A stretch of DNA of 64,000 nucleotides from a virus. The notes beneath the pieces are model-generated. The model was not told the origin of the DNA, searched no databases, and saw only the letters and a program-made list of their open reading frames with translations. The stretch covers positions 1-64,000 of the IMG/VR virus record IMGVR_UViG_3300040809_000464. One strand, given 5' to 3'. Positions 18,732 to 29,888 of this stretch are shown piece by piece. Position 1 is the first letter of the stretch, and the number at the start of each line of letters is the position of its first letter. Position numbers and translations under genes: made by a program.

Positions 18732-18745
18732 ATTATATTATTCTC

Positions 18746-18774
18746 TTGACAAGACTCTAATTATATGATATAAT
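18746..18774 (+). promoter_or_regulatory. Consensus sigma70 promoter for the terminase region
   Basis: TTGACA (18746-18751), 17 bp, TATAAT (18769-18774), about 85 bp before the putative terS gene; extended -35 reads CTTGACAAG. Confidence 0.85.
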
Positions 18775-18859: not shown

Positions 18860-19189
18860 ATGAGACCTCTATTGGAAGATGAGGCTAAAAAGAATAACCG
18901 TAAAGCATTCACCAAACTTCTCAAACGCTGTGGTGAAAGCCTCCCTAAAGCTCTCGATACCATCCTAGATATTATGGATGATCCTAATGCACCTATCACG
19001 TCAAAACTCCAAGCAGCTCGTACCGTTATAGATTTAGTATCTAGCGGTGATAAAGTCTTGAAGAGCTACTTAGAAGATAGGCTTGAGAATGAATACGGTA
19101 AAGCCAAACAAACTAAAAAGAAAATCATTGAAGAAAACCCAGAATTAGATGAAGAGACTGAAGTGGTTGTTTCTATTACAGGCACATAA
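18860..19189 (+). CDS. Putative terminase small subunit
   Basis: The 109 aa protein is helical (residues ~12-70, ALDTILDIMDDPNAPITSKLQAARTVIDLV) with a basic then acidic C-terminus. Position upstream of the large terminase, size and helical content fit a TerS. It lacks an obvious N-terminal helix-turn-helix of the classical type, so the call rests mainly on location. AAGGAG precedes the ATG. Confidence 0.45.
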   Translation: MRPLLEDEAKKNNRKAFTKLLKRCGESLPKALDTILDIMDDPNAPITSKLQAARTVIDLVSSGDKVLKSYLEDRLENEYGKAKQTKKKIIEENPELDEETEVVVSITGT

Positions 19190-20088: not shown

Positions 20089-20264
20089 ATATATTAAAAC
20101 TATACGTGTGGCTACCCTTTGTACTGATCGGAACTGTATGGGCTTCTGCTGTGTTTGTTATCTATGGAGCCTACTTTGAGTTATTCTTCTTATGGTTCTG
20201 TACTTGGAGGTGTACCTTTGACTTGGTGGGGACTTTAAGGATTATATTGAGAGGTGTTGTTTGA
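20082..20264 (+). CDS. Small hydrophobic membrane protein
   Basis: A GTG at 20082 with GGAGGAG upstream (short spacing) or a GTG at 20055 could start it. About 60 residues are almost entirely hydrophobic with many aromatic residues and two Cys. Located after the holin-like gene, it may be a lysis accessory (second holin or antiholin). Its stop overlaps the GIY-YIG TTG start. Confidence 0.45.
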   Translation: MLDILKLYVWLPFVLIGTVWASAVFVIYGAYFELFFLWFCTWRCTFDLVGTLRIILRGVV

Positions 20265-21175
20265 AGTATTTATATATAATTCATAATAGTGTTAATGATA
20301 AGAAGTATGTTGGTGTTTCAATAAGACCTGATGAAAGGTTTAAACAACATAAAAGAAGAGAAGGTTGCCCAGCTCTACGTAGTGCAATGAAGAAATATGG
20401 CACTGACAAATTCAGTATGGAACTACTTTGTGTAGGTGATGCAGAAACAATAGACCAGTTAGAGATTGAAGCTATACAGTTGTTCAATTCAGTAACACCT
20501 AATGGGTATAATGTATCGTTAGGCGGTGAAGGTGCTAAGTACATACAATGGTCAGATGAACAAGATAATCTTTTATATACGCTTAATAACATTACTGTAG
20601 CTAAACTTTTAAATATAGACCAGAATACAGTAGCTAGACGGAGGAGATTCTTAGGTATACCAAATATACCTCAAGATTTTAGTTGTAAGGAATTTAATAT
20701 AACTAAAGATGTTGAAGAAATATTCAGAGACACATCTATAACTATTAACACTGCGGCTAGAAAAGTCGGATGTGATAAAGCAACTGTATCAAAGTTTAGA
20801 AAGAAACATAACATAGGTCTTGATATAGGTGTACGTAAGGTAAATGGTGATCTAGTAAAGTTTGAACTTACAGAGGATATCATAGAGGAATATAAAGAGG
20901 GTAAACCTTATAAGTTTTTCAAAGAAAAGTATGGTATATCAAGAAGCTTGTTTAACAGACATAGATCAGGTCTTAAACTAACAGTTAGTAATGCGATTGT
21001 TTGGACAGAGGATATGTTAGAAGTGTTATTAAATAAAGAGTACACTGTAAGTAAGAAAGCAAGATTACTAGGATTGAATTACCGTACAGTAGAGAAAAAG
21101 TTGAGGAAGATACATGACAAAAAAGAAACAAATAGTATTGAGTCCTCAGAAAGGACCTCAAGAAGAATTCCTTAA
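20261..21175 (+). CDS. GIY-YIG homing endonuclease with NUMOD/HTH repeats
   Basis: Begins at a TTG (20261) behind GAGAGG. Residues 3-17 read YLYIIHNSVNDKKYVGVS, the GIY/YIG pair; R23 in SIRPDERF, a conserved Glu in LEIEAIQLF and NVSLGGEG complete the catalytic module (first ~95 residues). The rest holds several HTH-like units (TINTAARKVGCDKATVSKFR, SKKARLLGLNYRTVEKKLR) for target recognition. It overlaps the terL start by 62 bp and contains its ribosome site, as expected for a mobile endonuclease beside its target. Confidence 0.85.
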   Translation: MKYLYIIHNSVNDKKYVGVSIRPDERFKQHKRREGCPALRSAMKKYGTDKFSMELLCVGDAETIDQLEIEAIQLFNSVTPNGYNVSLGGEGAKYIQWSDEQDNLLYTLNNITVAKLLNIDQNTVARRRRFLGIPNIPQDFSCKEFNITKDVEEIFRDTSITINTAARKVGCDKATVSKFRKKHNIGLDIGVRKVNGDLVKFELTEDIIEEYKEGKPYKFFKEKYGISRSLFNRHRSGLKLTVSNAIVWTEDMLEVLLNKEYTVSKKARLLGLNYRTVEKKLRKIHDKKETNSIESSERTSRRIP

Positions 21176-23648
21176 AAGAAAAGATGAGGTGTTCCTTGTT
21201 CTCTTTGGTGGAGGTGCAGGTGGCGGTAAAGCACTAAGGGATGACCAACTAGTTTTAACTCCTACAGGTTGGGTGCAGATATCAGATTTAAAGTTTGGTG
21301 ATGAAGTTATGACACCAGACAATGAAGTAACTAATGTTACAGGAGTTTATCCGCAAGGTAAAGTAGATCTATATGAAGTCACTTTATTAGACGGCAGGAA
21401 GTCGATCTGCTGTGGTGATCACTTATGGGAGTGTTGGGATGCACGTAGAGCAAAGAGAACAGTAAGAAAGACTTCAGAGCTTATAGAACGTATTAAGCAT
21501 ATAAATGTATTATTACCAACTGTAGAGGAGATAGATTACTTATCAGAGTACCAAACAGAATTACCTTTAGATGCTTACGTGTTGGGCGCTTTATTAGGTG
21601 ATGGAGGTATGAGTAGCGACAGTGTTAGTTTTACAACTGCTGATGAGTTCTTTATTAAAGAGTTCATTAAGTTAGGTGTAGATATTGTTAAGTGGAATAG
21701 TGGTAAATACGCTTACGGTATTAGAGGTTTAAATCCTACACTAAGATCGCTGAATCTTATGTTTAAGACTTCTCATACTAAATTCATACCAGATATCTAT
21801 AAGAAAGCTTCTATACAAGACCGTAAGAATCTTATACAAGGTTTGATGGATACAGATGGTTATGTCTCTAAGGAAGGTAAACTTTACTATTATACTGTTA
21901 GTGAACAACTTGCAAAGGACTTCCAAGAGGTTGTCAGAAGTCTAGGGGGTTCAGCAACTATAACAGATAAGTATACTAAGTATAACGGTAAGCGTGTTAA
22001 GTCTTATAGTGTTTATATCAAATACAATGAGGGTAAAGAGCTTGTAAGATTACCTAGAAAGAGAAACCTTGCAAGGACTAAGAATACACATAACGGTGTT
22101 CGTATCAAGAGTATTGATAAAGTTGAATCTGGTGAGGCAACTTGCATTAGTGTGGCTTGTCCTAAGAAATTATTTATTACGAATGACTTCATAGTTACTC
22201 ATAATACGTATGGTATACTTTTAGACAACCTTCTATATATCAATGATCCAAATTATTTCTCTGTGTTCTTTAGACGTACACTTGTTGAGTTGAAGACGAA
22301 TCTGTTCCCCGAGATGTTGAGGTTAGCAGAACCATTCTTATTCTATCAGAGCGGTCCAAACAAAGGTAAGCCTAAAGGTAAGGCACATATAAGCCTTCAA
22401 GATTACACAATAACATGGCCATCTGGTGCTAAGACAACTTGTGCATATTTAGATCTAGAAAAAGATTCTGACAAATGGTATGGTGCTGAAATATCAAGAG
22501 CTTACTTTGATGAATTCCAGTTTACAAGAGAATATTGTTTCGATGTAATACGTTCTCGTATGCGTTCTAAAGCAAAGATAAAATCTTGTATCAGGTGTAC
22601 ATTGAACCCAGACGATTCACACTTCTGTTATAACTACGTTAGAATATTCTTAGATGAGGAAGGATTCCCAATCCCAGAGTATAGCGGTAGAGAAGCATTC
22701 TTCTTAATACATGACGGTGTGACGTACACAGCTTGGACTAGAGAGGAATTACTTGAGAAGTTCCCTGAGAAAAAAGGCGGTATAAAGAACTACACTTACA
22801 TACCTTCTACCCTAGAAGATAACGCTATCCTTATGAATTTAGAAGCTGATTATAAAGCCACACTAGATTCATTACCAGAAGCAAAGCGTAAGCAGCTCTT
22901 ATTAGGTTGCTGGCACGCTAGTCAGTCTGAAGGGGAGTATTTCCGTAAAGATTGGGTTAAGATGGTAAATGGTTCTGCTGAGAATGCTACTAGGTGTAGA
23001 GCTTGGGATTTAGCTGGTGTAGAACATGATCCTAATAGTACAGGGTATGCTAAGAATCCAGACTGGACTGCTGGTGTACTTATGAGTAAGAGACCTACTC
23101 CGAGCGGTGTACCTATCTATAGGGTTGAAGATGTAATTAGGGATCGTAAATCTATTGGTGATATCGTTAGCTTGATAGTACAGACTTCTGTAGAAGATGC
23201 AGAACTATACGGTGATAAGTATTCAGTATTCATCCCTTCAGATCCAAACCCTTCAGCAACAGCCTTCGCTAAAGATATTGTTAGCAAGTTAGTTGAGAAA
23301 GGTATCAAGGCGTACACTTCAAGTAGTAGGGATAGCAAGATAGACAGATACTTACCATTCTCTTGTGCTTGTCAGAACGATCAAGTTGAGGTTACAATAG
23401 CTCCTTGGAACAAAGAATATTTCCTTGAGTCTGAAAAGTTAACCTCTGACAGGTTGAAACAGAAGAAGCAAAAGGATGATCAGGTGGATGCTACTAGTGA
23501 TGCGTTTATAAGATTAAACAGTACTCGTGTTGTACCAGTCCCCACCTTACCAGCATCTTCTCAATCGACAGCAACCCGTTTAGATGAGCTTCGAAGGGAC
23601 ACTGGCAGAGGATTACCTAACGTGAATGACCTTAAGAAGAACCGTTAG
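21114..23648 (+). CDS. Terminase large subunit interrupted by a class 3 intein
   Basis: The 844 codon gene encodes a ~519 aa terminase after removal of a 325 aa intein (residues 40-364). The extein Walker A is GGGAGGGK|TYG, Walker B AYFDEF near residue 466. The RNase H-like nuclease shows RAWDLAG near 632, SDPNPSA near 710 and DDQVDATSDAF near 788. The enzyme drives ATP-dependent DNA translocation into the prohead and cuts concatemers. Translation starts at 21114 behind GAGG within the GIY-YIG gene. The intein must splice for ATPase activity because it separates the Walker Lys from the Thr. Confidence 0.9.
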   Translation: MTKKKQIVLSPQKGPQEEFLKRKDEVFLVLFGGGAGGGKALRDDQLVLTPTGWVQISDLKFGDEVMTPDNEVTNVTGVYPQGKVDLYEVTLLDGRKSICCGDHLWECWDARRAKRTVRKTSELIERIKHINVLLPTVEEIDYLSEYQTELPLDAYVLGALLGDGGMSSDSVSFTTADEFFIKEFIKLGVDIVKWNSGKYAYGIRGLNPTLRSLNLMFKTSHTKFIPDIYKKASIQDRKNLIQGLMDTDGYVSKEGKLYYYTVSEQLAKDFQEVVRSLGGSATITDKYTKYNGKRVKSYSVYIKYNEGKELVRLPRKRNLARTKNTHNGVRIKSIDKVESGEATCISVACPKKLFITNDFIVTHNTYGILLDNLLYINDPNYFSVFFRRTLVELKTNLFPEMLRLAEPFLFYQSGPNKGKPKGKAHISLQDYTITWPSGAKTTCAYLDLEKDSDKWYGAEISRAYFDEFQFTREYCFDVIRSRMRSKAKIKSCIRCTLNPDDSHFCYNYVRIFLDEEGFPIPEYSGREAFFLIHDGVTYTAWTREELLEKFPEKKGGIKNYTYIPSTLEDNAILMNLEADYKATLDSLPEAKRKQLLLGCWHASQSEGEYFRKDWVKMVNGSAENATRCRAWDLAGVEHDPNSTGYAKNPDWTAGVLMSKRPTPSGVPIYRVEDVIRDRKSIGDIVSLIVQTSVEDAELYGDKYSVFIPSDPNPSATAFAKDIVSKLVEKGIKAYTSSSRDSKIDRYLPFSCACQNDQVEVTIAPWNKEYFLESEKLTSDRLKQKKQKDDQVDATSDAFIRLNSTRVVPVPTLPASSQSTATRLDELRRDTGRGLPNVNDLKKNR
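21231..22205 (+). other. Class 3 intein with LAGLIDADG homing endonuclease
   Basis: In-frame insertion of 325 residues beginning with Ala and ending FIVTHN, followed by extein Thr. Splicing blocks: DHLW gives W66 (block B:12), TCISV gives C305 (block F:4) and VTHN gives T323 (block G:5), the WCT triad of class 3 inteins, which start splicing from the block F Cys instead of residue 1. Block B Thr is replaced by Cys (CCGDH). The central domain carries two LAGLIDADG motifs, YVLGALLGDGG and LIQGLMDTDGYV, so it is probably a full, active element. It sits precisely in the terminase P-loop. Confidence 0.85.
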
Positions 23649-23679
23649 AAGATGGATACCTAAAGGTTTCCTAAAGGGT

Positions 23680-23735
23680 CTTGTCAAGCCTTATTTCGTT
23701 AAATTTACATTTCTTTTAAGAAAAAGCTTGACAAG
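23680..23735. promoter_or_regulatory. 10 bp inverted repeat flanking the promoter
   Basis: CTTGTCAAGC (23680-23689) is the exact reverse complement of GCTTGACAAG (23726-23735), 36 bp apart; each arm is itself palindromic around one base, and the right arm contains the -35 box. This could be a pair of operator sites or the remnant of a second -35. Confidence 0.5.
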
Positions 23736-23756
23736 ATTTACTTACCGTGTTATAAT
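23728..23756 (+). promoter_or_regulatory. Consensus sigma70 promoter for the portal-segment gene
   Basis: TTGACA (23728-23733), 17 bp, TATAAT (23751-23756). It lies between terL and the small gene at 23800 and should also transcribe the structured leader and portal. Confidence 0.85.
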
Positions 23757-23799
23757 AATAGGGTAAAATTTACAGAGTAATCTAAAAAGAGGAGAGAAT

Positions 23800-24009
23800 A
23801 TGAGTACTGAGGAATTTATAGGCGGGGGTTGCACTTTACATATACCTAGAGGTATTTTAGATAAAGCTGCTAAAGACAACGAATCTCCTGAAGCAGTCCT
23901 TTTGAAAGATTTAGAAAAGGATGCAGCTCTTATTTCTGATGGTACTGAAAAGTATTTGGTACTCCCAGATGTAAAAGGTTTTAGATTAACCTCTACTAAG
24001 TCAGTATAA
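23800..24009 (+). CDS. Orphan homologue of the portal clip-like segment, 69 aa
   Basis: This 69 aa protein aligns along nearly its whole length to an internal segment of the portal encoded at about 25416-25625. Shared: HI-P...L-KAA-D--SPEA-L---E-DAA-IS----Y...DV, then -L-S---V. I count about 19 identities over 43 positions. It starts at an ATG behind GGAGAG. In the portal the segment lies between two long helices, where the clip domain of portals is found. It has a stop before any portal flank, so it is a free domain rather than a frameshifted portal. Function unknown: packaging regulator, decoy or remnant. Confidence 0.7.
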   Translation: MSTEEFIGGGCTLHIPRGILDKAAKDNESPEAVLLKDLEKDAALISDGTEKYLVLPDVKGFRLTSTKSV

Positions 24010-24502
24010 AAAGTTTATAGTTCTCCCTAAGAAGAGGCGGCTACCTGAGACTATCTTAGAAGGTATGTTTGCAAGCGAGGGGATATAATAGTCTTTAACG
24101 TATTAGGGGTGGATTGGATAGAGCCTACCGTATATACTTTAATTAGTATTACGCTTACGCCCCCTAGAACTATTTCTTATACGATAAGCCCTGAACCTTC
24201 ATGCTAAAGGGTGTGCGATTGACTGCACTTAAGAGATTCACTGCTTAGAGGGAAATACTTAATAGTATTAACTTCTGAAGTGTGGACTATACCAATAGGC
24301 TGTAGAGGGGCGTATCACTCGACTACAAGCGGCAGGTAGATATATCTTACTCTTTAGTACTTTATAGATACCACTGATACATTACAACAGTTTCTCCTCA
24401 GACACCTTTTAAGTTTCCCCTTTAATGGCTCTCACCATGTTTACGGCTTAGAAGGTGTCGTCCCATTCTCTATCAATTCCTACCATATCAAAGGAACACT
24501 TA
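24010..24502 (+). ncRNA. Long structured leader upstream of the portal gene
   Basis: 493 bp without a convincing ORF. Stems include CTAAGA (24027-24032)/TCTTAG (24054-24059), AGACTAT (24048-24054)/ATAGTCT (24088-24094) in pseudoknot order with the former, GTGC/GCAC (24213-24228), AATACT/AGTATT (24254-24269), TGTAG/CTACA (24301-24326) and GACACCTT (24401-24408)/AAGGTGTC (24452-24459). The pseudoknot arrangement recalls P3/P7 of group I introns, but there is no room for P4-P6. Could be a regulatory or stand-alone RNA. Confidence 0.45.
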
Positions 24503-26182
24503 ATGGCTGAACAGTCAAAGAAAACGCCTAAGACGAATTATTTAAGGCGTAATAAAAGTAGGAATAGTAATAAGAATAAGAATAACACTATTCAGACTCC
24601 CGTACAGAAAGCAGACACAGAAGATTTAGTTATCGAAAAGGAAATCAACGGACAGTCTGTAGTAATTAAAGGTACTTCCAATTTAGATAGACCAGTCTCA
24701 AGATTAGGTTCTAAGCAGAAGTCCTACCCAGCTCTATCTGTTACAGGTGGTAAGATAACAGAAGAACGTATTAAAGATTTACAGTATCAGAATCTATATA
24801 AAACTGTCAATGAGATGGTGAACGATGATGCTGTAGCGTTAGGTTACTTCACTAAGAGAGCGTTATTACAGATAGCACTTTCTAAGGCTCGTATCAAGAA
24901 AGGTAAGAGTACTTCTCCTCAAGCTAAAGAAGCTTACGAATTTATAAAGTGGGTGTTCGATAATATTGATCAGTCTTGGTATGATATTATAAGTAACATC
25001 ACTACATATCCTAAATATGGTTTCTCCTTACAAGAGATTGTACTCACCACGATCAAAGAGGGTAAGTATGAAGGTAAGAAGAAGCTTAAGAGATTGTCCC
25101 CTATATCAGCCAAGTCTGTAGAAGATTGGGTCTTTACAGATGACCAGAGAGAGTTGTTAGGTATTACACAATCTACAGCTTGGATGAATGACACTGGAAT
25201 AGCTGGCACAAACACTTTTAAAACTGCTACAGAATTTAGAAGACAAGACAATAAAACAGATATTGCAATACCTATTGAAAGGTTACTACACTTTGCTTAC
25301 AACGCCGAAGCTAATAATCCTACAGGGGAATCTCAGTTTAAGAGAGCCTATATAGCTTGGCGTGAGAAGACCCTTATTCAGGATCTAGCTCTTGTTGGTG
25401 TATCTAAAGATATGTCTGGTGTAATTCATATAGAGATACCTTCCGAAGTACTGGTCAAAGCAGCTAACGATCCAACCTCTCCAGAAGCAGACCTAGTAAA
25501 CCAGATGGAAAGGGATGCAGCTAACATATCAGCCAACTCTCAAGCTTATTTTATTACTGCTTCTGATGTAGATGAAGTTGGTAAGAATAAACTATACAGT
25601 ATGACCTTGAAGGGTGTTGAAGGCGGTAGTAAGAACTATGATGCAGATGCTATGGTGTCTACTCGTAGGAAAGCTATCTTAGACATCTTTGGTGTAGGCT
25701 TCATTGATAATAACTCTAACAGTTATAATAGCTCTGAAGCTGGTGCTAACTTTCATGAGCTGTTACTTGAGAGTGAATTAAATTTCATACTAGAACAATT
25801 CAACAGTAAACTTATCCCAACACTTCTAGCAGTGAATGGCTTTAGAGTGGACTCTGATGAAGCTCCTTATATGGAAGCTGGTAACGTTACAGAACGTTCA
25901 AGAGATGAGACCTCTAAGTTTATCCAACGTGTATTCGCTGTTAATGGTATCCCACGTACTAAAGAGATCATCTTAAAGCTTGTTGAAGATTCAGGACTAC
26001 CTACAGAGGAACTTGAAGATTTAGAGACTGAAGAGATATGGGAACTTATGGGGTGGAATCCAGAAGATAAACCTACTAGCAGATCTTCACAAGGGATGGA
26101 AAACGGGATGCCTAATGGCACTGGAAATGCAGATGGCAGTTCTGGTGATAGTAGCTCCTCTAACAATGAGAATGCTGAGTAA
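24503..26182 (+). CDS. Portal protein
   Basis: 559 aa from the ATG at 24503 (AAGGA upstream); a GTG at 24455 lies within an inverted repeat and is less likely. The N-terminus is basic and disordered, followed by a body with FIKWVFDNIDQSW, YPKYGFSLQEIV, REKTLIQDLALVGV and a long helix near 400-430. The C-terminal ~40 residues are Gly/Ser/Asn-rich. Order of genes (terL, portal, S49 protease, decoration, capsid) supports the call. It forms the dodecameric DNA gate at the capsid vertex. Confidence 0.85.
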   Translation: MAEQSKKTPKTNYLRRNKSRNSNKNKNNTIQTPVQKADTEDLVIEKEINGQSVVIKGTSNLDRPVSRLGSKQKSYPALSVTGGKITEERIKDLQYQNLYKTVNEMVNDDAVALGYFTKRALLQIALSKARIKKGKSTSPQAKEAYEFIKWVFDNIDQSWYDIISNITTYPKYGFSLQEIVLTTIKEGKYEGKKKLKRLSPISAKSVEDWVFTDDQRELLGITQSTAWMNDTGIAGTNTFKTATEFRRQDNKTDIAIPIERLLHFAYNAEANNPTGESQFKRAYIAWREKTLIQDLALVGVSKDMSGVIHIEIPSEVLVKAANDPTSPEADLVNQMERDAANISANSQAYFITASDVDEVGKNKLYSMTLKGVEGGSKNYDADAMVSTRRKAILDIFGVGFIDNNSNSYNSSEAGANFHELLLESELNFILEQFNSKLIPTLLAVNGFRVDSDEAPYMEAGNVTERSRDETSKFIQRVFAVNGIPRTKEIILKLVEDSGLPTEELEDLETEEIWELMGWNPEDKPTSRSSQGMENGMPNGTGNADGSSGDSSSSNNENAE

Positions 26183-26271
26183 TGAAGTTAACAATACAAG
26201 AATTAAAACAAATAGTAAAATGGGTGGGATATACAAATCCATCATCACCTAAGAAATACCTTAAGGAGTAA
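26182..26271 (+). CDS. Tiny coupled peptide, 29 aa
   Basis: Starts at an ATG overlapping the portal stop (TAATG) and encodes MKLTIQELKQIVKWVGYTNP plus nine residues. Its last codons AAG GAG form the ribosome site of the protease gene. It could couple translation of the head operon rather than act as a protein. Confidence 0.5.
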   Translation: MKLTIQELKQIVKWVGYTNPSSPKKYLKE

Positions 26272-26273
26272 CG

Positions 26274-27737
26274 ATGGCAGGTCCACTACAGAGACTCACC
26301 TCTAAGTTGTATGACACACCACACATTGTAACACAATCCCGATTAGATGACATCTTTGGTTATCTAGAAGAGCGTAACTTACGTCCTCATGACTTCCCAA
26401 CTGATCAAGAACTCGTTAATGAATCAGCTCGCATTAAAGGTGAGTATGAAGCTACAGAGTTACAGATTGAAGATGGTATCGCTACATTAGACTTAAGAGG
26501 TACAACAGTTTACAGAGAGTCTGCTATTGATGCTTTCTGTGGATTGGTATCTTATCAGGGTTTGGTACGTAATATTGATACGTTAGTTTCTCGTAAAGAT
26601 GAAGTTAGCTTATTAGCTGTATTCATTGACTCACCGGGTGGTGAAGCCTTTAGAGCATTCGAAGCAGGTCGTTCTGTTAAAGAGAAACTTACTCAAGCTG
26701 GTATACGTTCAGTAGCTTACGTTGATGGTATTGCTGCTAGTGGTGGTTATGTATTAGCTAGTGCTTTCGATGAGATTGTAGCTAATCCAGATAGTGAAGT
26801 AGGTAGTATTGGTGTTCGTGTAGCTCTACGTAATCCTTCACAAGAAGAAAAAGATAGAGTTCTGTATGTAACAGCAGGTGAGAATAAAGTTCCATTCGAT
26901 GCAGAAGGTAACTTCACAGAGAGCTTTATTAATAAGATTCAAACAGGGATCAATGAAACATATGACACGTTCGTTACTTATGTAGCTGATATGCGTGGTA
27001 TGACTCGTGAAGCTGTTATCGATACAAAGGCAGATACTTTCTCAGCTAAACGTTCATTAGAGATGGGCTTGATTGATAAAGTTATGACAGGTGATGAGTT
27101 TGTAAACTACATTGCTGATTTAAAAGATTCAAGTACTAAGAGTGGTAACTTACTAACTGTTAGTGCTGACACAGATTCTCGTATAGAGGATGATTCCGTT
27201 GCAGAAGATTCTATTGTGGTTGAAAGCAACGAAAACTTAAATGTCGAGGAATTGTCCTCAGACGATACTACTATTGAAAATGGAGACATAATGTCTGATA
27301 AAGAATTAAGCCAACTTGAAGTGATGGAAAAGACCATTGCAGATATGCAAGCTCAAATGACTACTCTTACAGAGGCTAATGCTAAGTTAGCTGCTGAAAA
27401 GGTTGCTGCTGAAGAAGCTGCTGCTGAAGAGTTAGCTCGTAAACAAGAAGCAATTGATGCACAAGATAAAGAAGCTTATGGTGAATTCCTAAGTGGTTTA
27501 TCTTTTGTTTCTGATAAAGAAGCTATGACCGATACGTTATTCAAGATTGATCGTTTTGAAGCTCAAATGGCTGATGTTATCACTAGCGCTTTAACTGATG
27601 CACAAGCAGCTATCGATGCTGTTCCTGAGCAAATTTCTGTAGCGGCTCCTGAAGAAGAAATCGCTGAAGAAGCCTCTGAAGATGAAGCTCATGTATCTCG
27701 TGTAGCATCTCGTCTTAAGAACCTAACAAACAAATAA
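26274..27737 (+). CDS. S49-family prohead protease with C-terminal scaffold domain
   Basis: The 487 aa protein has the SppA/ClpP-like fold: IDSPGGEAFRAFEAG (118-132), VDGIAASGGYVLASAF (150-165) with nucleophile S157, GSIGV, and a candidate general base K205 in AGENKVPF. The C-terminal part from about residue 340 is an Ala/Glu-rich coiled coil typical of scaffolds. This matches lambda C/Nu3: protease and scaffold fused, with the scaffold also made separately. It matures the prohead. Confidence 0.85.
   Translation: MAGPLQRLTSKLYDTPHIVTQSRLDDIFGYLEERNLRPHDFPTDQELVNESARIKGEYEATELQIEDGIATLDLRGTTVYRESAIDAFCGLVSYQGLVRNIDTLVSRKDEVSLLAVFIDSPGGEAFRAFEAGRSVKEKLTQAGIRSVAYVDGIAASGGYVLASAFDEIVANPDSEVGSIGVRVALRNPSQEEKDRVLYVTAGENKVPFDAEGNFTESFINKIQTGINETYDTFVTYVADMRGMTREAVIDTKADTFSAKRSLEMGLIDKVMTGDEFVNYIADLKDSSTKSGNLLTVSADTDSRIEDDSVAEDSIVVESNENLNVEELSSDDTTIENGDIMSDKELSQLEVMEKTIADMQAQMTTLTEANAKLAAEKVAAEEAAAEELARKQEAIDAQDKEAYGEFLSGLSFVSDKEAMTDTLFKIDRFEAQMADVITSALTDAQAAIDAVPEQISVAAPEEEIAEEASEDEAHVSRVASRLKNLTNK
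27291..27737 (+). CDS. Nested in-frame scaffold protein, 148 aa
   Basis: An in-frame ATG (residue 340, MSDKELSQLEV) has GGAG five bases upstream and starts exactly at the coiled-coil scaffold region. The lambda Nu3 precedent makes independent translation of this part likely. The domain is Ala/Glu/Lys-rich with long helices. Confidence 0.6.
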   Translation: MSDKELSQLEVMEKTIADMQAQMTTLTEANAKLAAEKVAAEEAAAEELARKQEAIDAQDKEAYGEFLSGLSFVSDKEAMTDTLFKIDRFEAQMADVITSALTDAQAAIDAVPEQISVAAPEEEIAEEASEDEAHVSRVASRLKNLTNK

Positions 27738-28203: not shown

Positions 28204-29265
28204 ATGGCAATTTCACGTTCACATAACGATGTAAATCGTTTCGTAGACCACACAGCTACAGTATCAGAGATGCCTAATCTGTATGGTTTATTCAACCAGA
28301 TGGGTTTATTCACTGAGGTAGGTATCCGTTCTACTTTCGTTCAATTCTGGAAAGAGTATCACACTGTAAGCTTACTTCCTTCTGCTCCTCGCGGTGGTCG
28401 TGGCTTCGTTAAAGGTAAAGACAAAAGCGCTGACCTTTTCGTATTGAACACAACTTTCTTCAAGTACGCTGATCATATCACTTCTGAAGATATCCAGAAT
28501 TACACTCAAGTTTCTAGCACAGAAGAGCCTTTAGAAGAAACTGAAGCTAATATCGTTGCAGATAAGCTACAAATAGGTCGTGAACACTTCGATCAAACTA
28601 TCGAGTATATGAAGTTCAATGCGGTTACTGGTATCTCTGTTAACCCTGATGGTGATGTACTTGCTAACATGTTCACTGAATTCGGTGTCACTCAAGATGT
28701 TGTCAACTTCGACTTAGGTAATGCATCTAGTAATATCACGAAGCATGTATCTGAATTGAAGCGTATTGTTGCAGCTAACCTTAAGATGGGTCGTAATTTA
28801 ACAGACTTATTCTTAGTAGTTGATAAGCAATTCTTCGATGATTATGTTAACCACGCTGATGTAGTTGATCGTTGGAATCAATACAACAATGCTGGTATGC
28901 AACGTAACCGTGACAACCTTCAAGATTTCCGTGAATGGGGTGCAATTTCGGTCTTTGAAGACCGAGGATTAACCCTAATCGAGTATAACCCGGAGTTCAC
29001 ATTACCAGATGGTACTACTACTAACGTACTGACTGCTGGTGAAGGTATTGCAATTGTTCCGGGCTTCACAGGTGCTAATGCAATCTACCGTGGCTACTAC
29101 GCTCCTTCTGACAAGAAGTCTGATGCTAACCGTCCGGGTAACGAATTGAACGCTTGGGAATACACAGATGATCGAGATACTTATACAGATATCGAGATGC
29201 AGTCTGCACCATTGTTCTTCAATACTCGTCCGGGTATTGCTGTTAAGGTTACTGATCAGCCTTAA
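28204..29265 (+). CDS. Major capsid protein (lambda E-like HK97 fold)
   Basis: The 353 aa protein resembles the phage capsid E family: a short N-arm, LFNQMGLFTEVGIRSTFVQFW, PRGGRGFVKGKDK, then LQIGREHFDQTIEYMKFNAV, and a C-terminal CPR..-type SAPLFFNTRPGIAVKV. It is flanked by decoration and connector genes and followed at once by a strong terminator, as expected for the most highly made virion protein. AGAGG precedes the ATG. Confidence 0.85.
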   Translation: MAISRSHNDVNRFVDHTATVSEMPNLYGLFNQMGLFTEVGIRSTFVQFWKEYHTVSLLPSAPRGGRGFVKGKDKSADLFVLNTTFFKYADHITSEDIQNYTQVSSTEEPLEETEANIVADKLQIGREHFDQTIEYMKFNAVTGISVNPDGDVLANMFTEFGVTQDVVNFDLGNASSNITKHVSELKRIVAANLKMGRNLTDLFLVVDKQFFDDYVNHADVVDRWNQYNNAGMQRNRDNLQDFREWGAISVFEDRGLTLIEYNPEFTLPDGTTTNVLTAGEGIAIVPGFTGANAIYRGYYAPSDKKSDANRPGNELNAWEYTDDRDTYTDIEMQSAPLFFNTRPGIAVKVTDQP

Positions 29266-29299: not shown

Positions 29300-29328
29300 T
29301 TTACATAAATACATTTTCAAGTTATAAT
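29300..29328 (+). promoter_or_regulatory. Sigma70 promoter for the PD-(D/E)XK endonuclease gene
   Basis: TTTACA (29300-29305), 17 bp, TATAAT (29323-29328), immediately after the capsid terminator. Confidence 0.75.
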
Positions 29329-29360
29329 ATTCTTAAGTGTATTTATATAAGGTAACAATT

Positions 29361-29888
29361 TTGAAAGATAATTATTTAAACGAAGCAAGACTAGGTGAAC
29401 ACTTAAAAGTTATTTTCCCTGATAATGAATTTGTTCATGATAAACCAGTGCCTGATTCTTCTAATAAAAGAAGACGTCCAGATTATAGATGTGATGAGCT
29501 AATGTTAATAGTGGAGTTCGATGGTATATCACATTATCAAAATATTAATATTATACTTTCTGATATTGAAAAAGATAAAGATTACTCTTCTTTAGGTTAC
29601 AGAGTACTACGCATACCTTATTTTGTACAACTGGACAAAACCACTACATATAACATATTCGGAATAGCTTTAGAAGAAGAGCTATACAGTTACCCTCAAG
29701 GTTTTATAGATAAGAAAGCAACTTTGCCAGCAAGCTTCTGTTACAATGGTTTGATGAAGTTTGAAGAAGACTTAAAAAGATTCTACTGGCTATCTCCTGA
29801 TATACTATACAGCTTAGAAAGTAAGATACAGGAATTAGGTGAAGAGAGAGTCTTGCCAAAACCTTTACTACATTTGATAACTCAATAA
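29361..29888 (+). CDS. PD-(D/E)XK (Vsr/DUF559-like) free-standing endonuclease
   Basis: Starts at a TTG at 29361 with TAAGG eight bases upstream; a GTG at 29337 is in frame but has no ribosome site. Residues ~28-52 read KRRRPDYRCDELMLIVEFDG then SHYQ, the PD...ExDGxxHY core of Vsr/DUF559-type nucleases; YRVLRIPYF follows. Its own promoter, flanking terminators and position after the capsid gene fit a mobile endonuclease (HEG-like) cassette. Confidence 0.7.
   Translation: MKDNYLNEARLGEHLKVIFPDNEFVHDKPVPDSSNKRRRPDYRCDELMLIVEFDGISHYQNINIILSDIEKDKDYSSLGYRVLRIPYFVQLDKTTTYNIFGIALEEELYSYPQGFIDKKATLPASFCYNGLMKFEEDLKRFYWLSPDILYSLESKIQELGEERVLPKPLLHLITQ

Follow-up and report, generated by a model that had tools for sequence, protein, structure and literature searches.

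In the phages studied to date, the clip of the portal protein is the docking site for the terminase and subsequently for the neck adaptors (PMC10359639, PMC9958956). A helix-loop-helix peptide from the terminase gp17 of phage T4, which constitutes the terminase side of the portal contact, was shown to inhibit packaging in vitro (PMC9958956), while the protein SpbK docks on the clip of the dodecameric SPbeta portal YonE and needs clustering for its activation (PMC12847820, PMC11984713). Besides terminase and neck adaptors, at least one immune sensor thus uses the clip as its dock. Here, we analysed positions 1-64000 of a virus record of 88,675 bp (the window, i.e. the whole stretch of 64,000 nucleotides), in which a 69-aa protein, ORF69, is encoded directly between the genes for the large terminase (TerL) and the portal; the other 24.7 kb of the record were examined in the form of separate loci. 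The following features are referred to in the text:

21114-23648, plus strand: gene for the large terminase TerL (residues 365-828 match phrog_979 with E 5e-126; the insert is matched by other families)

23679-23736, no strand assigned: perfect 11-bp inverted repeat TCTTGTCAAGC (23679-23689) / GCTTGACAAGA (23726-23736), which includes the -35 box

23728-23756, plus strand: perfect sigma70-type promoter, TTGACA-17-TATAAT, with TG 5' of the -10 box

23790-23794, plus strand: Shine-Dalgarno sequence AGGAG, 5 nt 5' of the ATG of ORF69, read from the sequence

23800-24009, plus strand: ORF69, free-standing portal clip-domain protein of 69 aa, supported by matches to portals, clip profile and codon score

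24010-24502, plus strand: stretch of 493 nt between ORF69 and portal without any ORF of at least 40 aa, from the ORF list and RNA search

24503-26182, plus strand: gene for a Mu-type portal (phrog_113, E 3e-39; PF06074, E 2e-10; match to solved portal structures)

25403-25624, plus strand: clip segment of the portal, homologue of ORF69, from the pairwise match, genome search and AlphaFold2

As read from the sequence, ORF69 starts with the ATG at 23800, ends with a stop codon at 24007-24009 and encodes the protein MSTEEFIGGGCTLHIPRGILDKAAKDNESPEAVLLKDLEKDAALISDGTEKYLVLPDVKGFRLTSTKSV; the ribosome site and clean stop ascribed to it in an earlier note on this DNA were both present. The head module is arranged in the order TerL, ORF69, portal, protease (26274-27737) and major head protein (28204-29265), with gene identities resting on PHROG matches. 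In the N-terminal part of TerL, GGGAGGGK is followed by an intein-like insert, and the start of the TerL gene is overlapped by a gene for a GIY-YIG homing endonuclease (20261-21175). Just 3' of the major head gene, a 183-aa protein (29337-29888) with a weak HNH endonuclease match (phrog_559, E 3e-4) has a promoter-like site of its own at 29300.

Judged by its sequence, ORF69 is a free-standing homologue of the portal clip domain. In a pairwise BLASTP comparison, its residues 7-54 aligned with residues 304-351 of the phage's own portal over 48 ungapped residues (42% identity, 60% positives, E 1e-9), and a genome-wide search located the matched portal DNA at 25415-25558. The earlier note had placed the portal counterpart at about 25416-25625, in agreement with the whole clip mapped here, and had described the alignment as extending along almost the full length of ORF69; this holds for most of the protein, but the last ~13 residues, comprising a shortened hairpin and the second strand, align only loosely with the portal clip. 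The strand and both helices are the best-kept parts; the hairpin is shorter and the second strand has diverged. With ORF69 as query, 249 of 50,697 phage records were matched, each at one place and mostly by residues 7-56, and the matches whose context was inspected are portals of Vequintavirinae and related phages. Along residues 7-56, portals of V5-like phages reached 40-46%, the best E-value being 2e-5. A profile of the clip, derived from portals with ORF69 left out, gave a score of 44.4 bits compared to 10.1 for the best shuffle (20,000 shuffles made, 16,610 scored), a strong match that bears out the proposed kinship, and together with the portal matches it rules out chance similarity. ORF69 was also matched by phrog_30239, along its clip part only, while a match to phrog_32989 (E 0.25) was taken as chance and Pfam returned no match. 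ORF69 is not itself a portal protein of the PF06074/phrog_113 type, as it comprises 69 aa instead of about 500 and lacks wing, stem and crown; its ends coincide with the boundaries of the clip domain rather than falling at random.

In an AlphaFold2 model of the portal (44 alignment rows, mean pLDDT 73), which matches solved portals with E-values down to 8e-26, residues 307-370 sit between the long helices 278-304 and 381-395. The clip profile matched residues 255-326 of 9cc7 and segments of four other solved portals, so that model and solved structures agree in identifying the segment as the clip between two long helices, as previously suggested. The model of ORF69 itself comprises a strand (residues 11-15), two helices (17-25 and 30-47) and a weak second strand (62-65) at a moderate pLDDT of 69, and among PDB entries it best matches 9cc7, the connector complex of phiTE, at a TM-score of 0.64 and an E-value of 0.08; this model is not independent of the sequence match, since portal rows formed the alignment on which it was built.

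The consensus sigma70 promoter reported ahead of ORF69 proved to be perfect, while its exclusive assignment to ORF69 is doubtful: the window contains three such perfect promoters (0.14 expected) and, since a search from ORF69 to the portal detected no terminator-like site, this one probably serves the head genes as well. Further strong promoters occur in the genome, one of them ahead of an ORF at 18860, which is possibly the small terminase subunit and has no PHROG match. The inverted repeat, possibly an operator or a hairpin at the 3' end of TerL, lies in a stretch with more stable folding than its mononucleotide shuffles show (z about -5). The palindrome CTTGWCAAG, which may be an operator, occurs three times in the window (18744-18754, 23679-23689 and 23726-23736; 0.6 expected) and also at genome position 74989, and overlies a perfect -35 box at two of the three window sites. 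The ORF-free stretch of 493 nt is unusual in such a compact genome. Locally stable folds were found in it at about 24209-24229 and 24389, but folding of the whole gap between ORF69 and portal is not unusual (z -1.4). In 23600-24560, neither a group I intron nor a known RNA gave a covariance-model match beyond chance, whereas the same search detected a group I intron in another record (L054). An AGACTAT/ATAGTCT complement spotted by eye in the gap was dropped as it received no support from cmscan.

The genes for TerL and portal are overlapping or no more than about 100 nt apart in most relatives, whereas about 850 bp are inserted between them in the window. Clip alignments were used to search about 100 related phage records over their whole lengths, metagenomic fragments included; ORF69 was absent from nearly all of them, although a copy may have been missed in individual fragmentary records, no degraded copies were found, and wide gaps between TerL and portal contained other proteins, none of them clip-like. 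By eye, genes resembling those for GIY-YIG or HNH homing endonucleases were seen at this junction in three records (L075:4273-4944, L099:4295-4957 and L093:4231-4965). The viral contigs searched contained no orthologue of ORF69, and blastn with 23600-26200 returned no similar phage record. A scan of genome contigs yielded no host- or plasmid-borne relative; the one good plasmid match, CP057073, was set aside, since its length and the 76% match suggest that it probably represents an assembled phage including an entire portal.

One other full free-standing clip was detected among the approximately 100 records. It is encoded in IMGVR_UViG_3300013939_000002 (116,766 bp; locus L123:2352-2627) by a gene that starts 14 nt past an nrdD-like gene, at a large distance from the portal, and its 91-aa product consists of a Cys-rich leader (MCKCNSEIRSPFCENC...) followed by the full portal clip. 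The match has an E-value of 6.5e-6 with alignment A2, 6.4e-17 with alignment A5, which includes that protein, and a score of 21.2 bits compared to 8.4 for the best shuffle. Like ORF69, this protein is a free-standing full clip from the same portal group; unlike ORF69, it carries a leader, lies beside the nrdD-like gene, and has a shortened first helix and a full hairpin. In Vibrio phage eugene 12A10, a protein with a Cys leader is similar to the leader of the 91-aa protein only, not to its clip, and was discarded. In the phage carrying the 91-aa protein, a group I intron with an HNH-like ORF splits the portal gene precisely where the clip begins (L054:5741-6723). In addition, a 92-aa protein ending in RSGEQAFYVLPSD... 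from a Certrevirus-like record matches the clip with an E-value of 0.0075. Its family, phrog_12907, was found with at least 80% query coverage in 25 phage records, and loci in Certrevirus-type phages include L124:2143-2421, L126-L128 and L204-L207. In G011, KaOmega and POP15, the tail of these proteins is similar to strand one of the portal hairpin (GEQSFFMLPSD), and in CR8, phiTE, P7_Pc, PcCB7V and SS-2025 to strand two (QYSMTLKGID) (0 and 5 of 5000 in shuffle tests); it is absent from more distant members. The N-terminus is weakly similar to a ribbon-helix-helix domain (PF07878, E 0.002, below the cut-off), and the tail of this conserved, ribbon-helix-helix-like small protein of Certrevirus phages resembles pieces of the clip hairpin. 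Clips or clip-like parts outside portals were found in three forms: alone, behind a Cys-rich leader and on a ribbon-helix-helix-like protein. It is conceivable, albeit doubtful, that the clip, whole or in part, has been split off repeatedly within the V5-like portal group of phages and that the resulting proteins form an undescribed class of mimics, which would govern docking of the terminase or weaken portal-sensing immunity; the finding that different parts of the clip are retained in the other detached copies counts against one common mechanism. The earlier note knew of no described phage with a separate clip protein. We likewise found no description in the literature searched, most subscription papers being outside its reach, but the second full copy and the Certrevirus pieces show that ORF69 is not the only case.

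Is ORF69 a functional gene or what is left of a duplication? The phage's head genes contain no other duplicated pair in a self-comparison. In a tree, ORF69 groups, albeit weakly supported (89/40), with the portal of its own phage and has a long branch (1.86 compared to 0.54); on this basis, it probably goes back to an old duplication of the portal in this lineage and has since evolved faster. The long branch would also suit a portal fragment left by recombination, open by chance or weak constraint and without present function, as would the absence from nearly all relatives and the acceptance of inserted genes at the TerL-portal junction of other phages. In a neutral simulation down to 42% identity, moreover, the frame stayed open in 18% of runs, so that the open frame by itself is weak evidence. 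However, the codon score of ORF69 (0.449 per codon) is like that of 69-codon pieces of the phage's genes (0.361 +/- 0.12) and unlike that of other frames (-1.12 +/- 0.51), and in the comparison with the portal clip pN (0.38) is below pS (0.67, near saturation), a constraint that lies partly on the portal side. A pseudogene is disfavoured by these two results. With its intact frame, strong ribosome site and perfect extended promoter, ORF69 also lacks the marks of a portal pseudogene, and the earlier statement that it is not simply a decayed portal stands, simple decay being unlikely; the clip-domain boundaries and the independent full clip elsewhere likewise speak against a functionless remnant. 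We regard such a remnant as a possible but rather improbable explanation.

Our preferred reading, which is tentative and open to considerable doubt, takes ORF69 to be a genuine small gene for a portal clip that was duplicated and kept as a separate protein; it is probably expressed and would act as a soluble clip mimic that tunes terminase docking. It is favoured because clip homology, domain boundaries, coding signal, promoter and ribosome site coincide, because a second stand-alone clip exists, because ORF69 lies between TerL and portal while the clip is where terminase docks, and because a terminase-side peptide inhibits T4 packaging in vitro. The long branch and the constraint shared with the portal weaken it, and a monomeric clip may bind terminase weakly. 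The strong host-type promoter would express ORF69 ahead of the head genes. Probably, the protein could not build a portal ring, since stem, wing and crown are absent and the hairpin is shortened, but with the clip strand and two helices it could occupy the surface by which the large terminase binds the clip, and would thereby delay or tune docking of the motor on proheads. Expression, solubility, the partner and the regulatory effect are what we infer; TerL, as product of the neighbouring gene, would be the likeliest partner, although this too is tentative, and ORF69 may compete for whatever binds the clip docking site. Among the mimic readings, an immune decoy ranks second because SpbK docks on the portal clip: a free clip would soak up host clip sensors without assembling the activating ring. 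SpbK requires clustering on the dodecameric clip and could be blocked by a monomeric one (PMC12847820, PMC11984713), its modelled contact, the helices, is the best-kept part of ORF69, and a fast-evolving copy would fit an arms race. On the other hand, SpbK is known from Bacillus and no anti-defence family matched, in a search that covered defence models only; we consider the decoy unlikely. Even less probable is that translation of ORF69 and the 493-nt untranslated stretch set the portal level with the protein itself being inert. A shared transcript without a terminator-like site, the long ORF-free stretch and its local folds would be consistent with such a leader ORF, but retention of the clip sequence would stay unexplained, folding of the whole gap is ordinary and no RNA family was found. 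Finally, the clip might block the terminase of co-infecting relatives. ORF69 is about equally similar to V5-like clips (37-40%) and to its own portal's clip (37%), but it would need to spare the phage's own terminase, and we consider this use very unlikely. The functionless duplicate and the defence decoy come right after the TerL mimic in this ranking, and sequence alone cannot separate the three.

What is new here is a detached domain of a well-known portal protein, with possibly a class behind it. If true, a phage-made soluble clip would provide a natural handle on the timing of motor docking or an antagonist of portal-sensing immunity, and ORF69 offers a minimal clip for biochemistry. The Certrevirus protein with the clip-like tail occurs in cultured phages, which makes the idea partly accessible to laboratory work. 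Compared to known systems, ORF69 shares its profile and, as its moderate-confidence model suggests, the order strand, helix, helix, strand with the solved clips of the phiTE portal (9cc7), phi92 gp120 (21vl), Pakpunavirus P7-1 (11bp), Bas63 (9mt4) and Sf14 (9c39), but differs from them in being a separate protein without stem, wing and crown, with a shorter hairpin and a diverged second strand. In the SpbK-YonE and Nip systems of Bacillus phages, as in the case proposed here, the portal clip is a surface recognised outside packaging; YonE, however, is an entire portal, Nip is a counter-defence protein directed at SpbK, and neither of the two is a stand-alone clip. The gp17 peptide of T4 illustrates, as proposed for ORF69, that a short piece of the portal-terminase interface can block packaging, but that peptide derives from the terminase and was added in vitro, whereas ORF69 is a piece of the portal side encoded by a phage gene.
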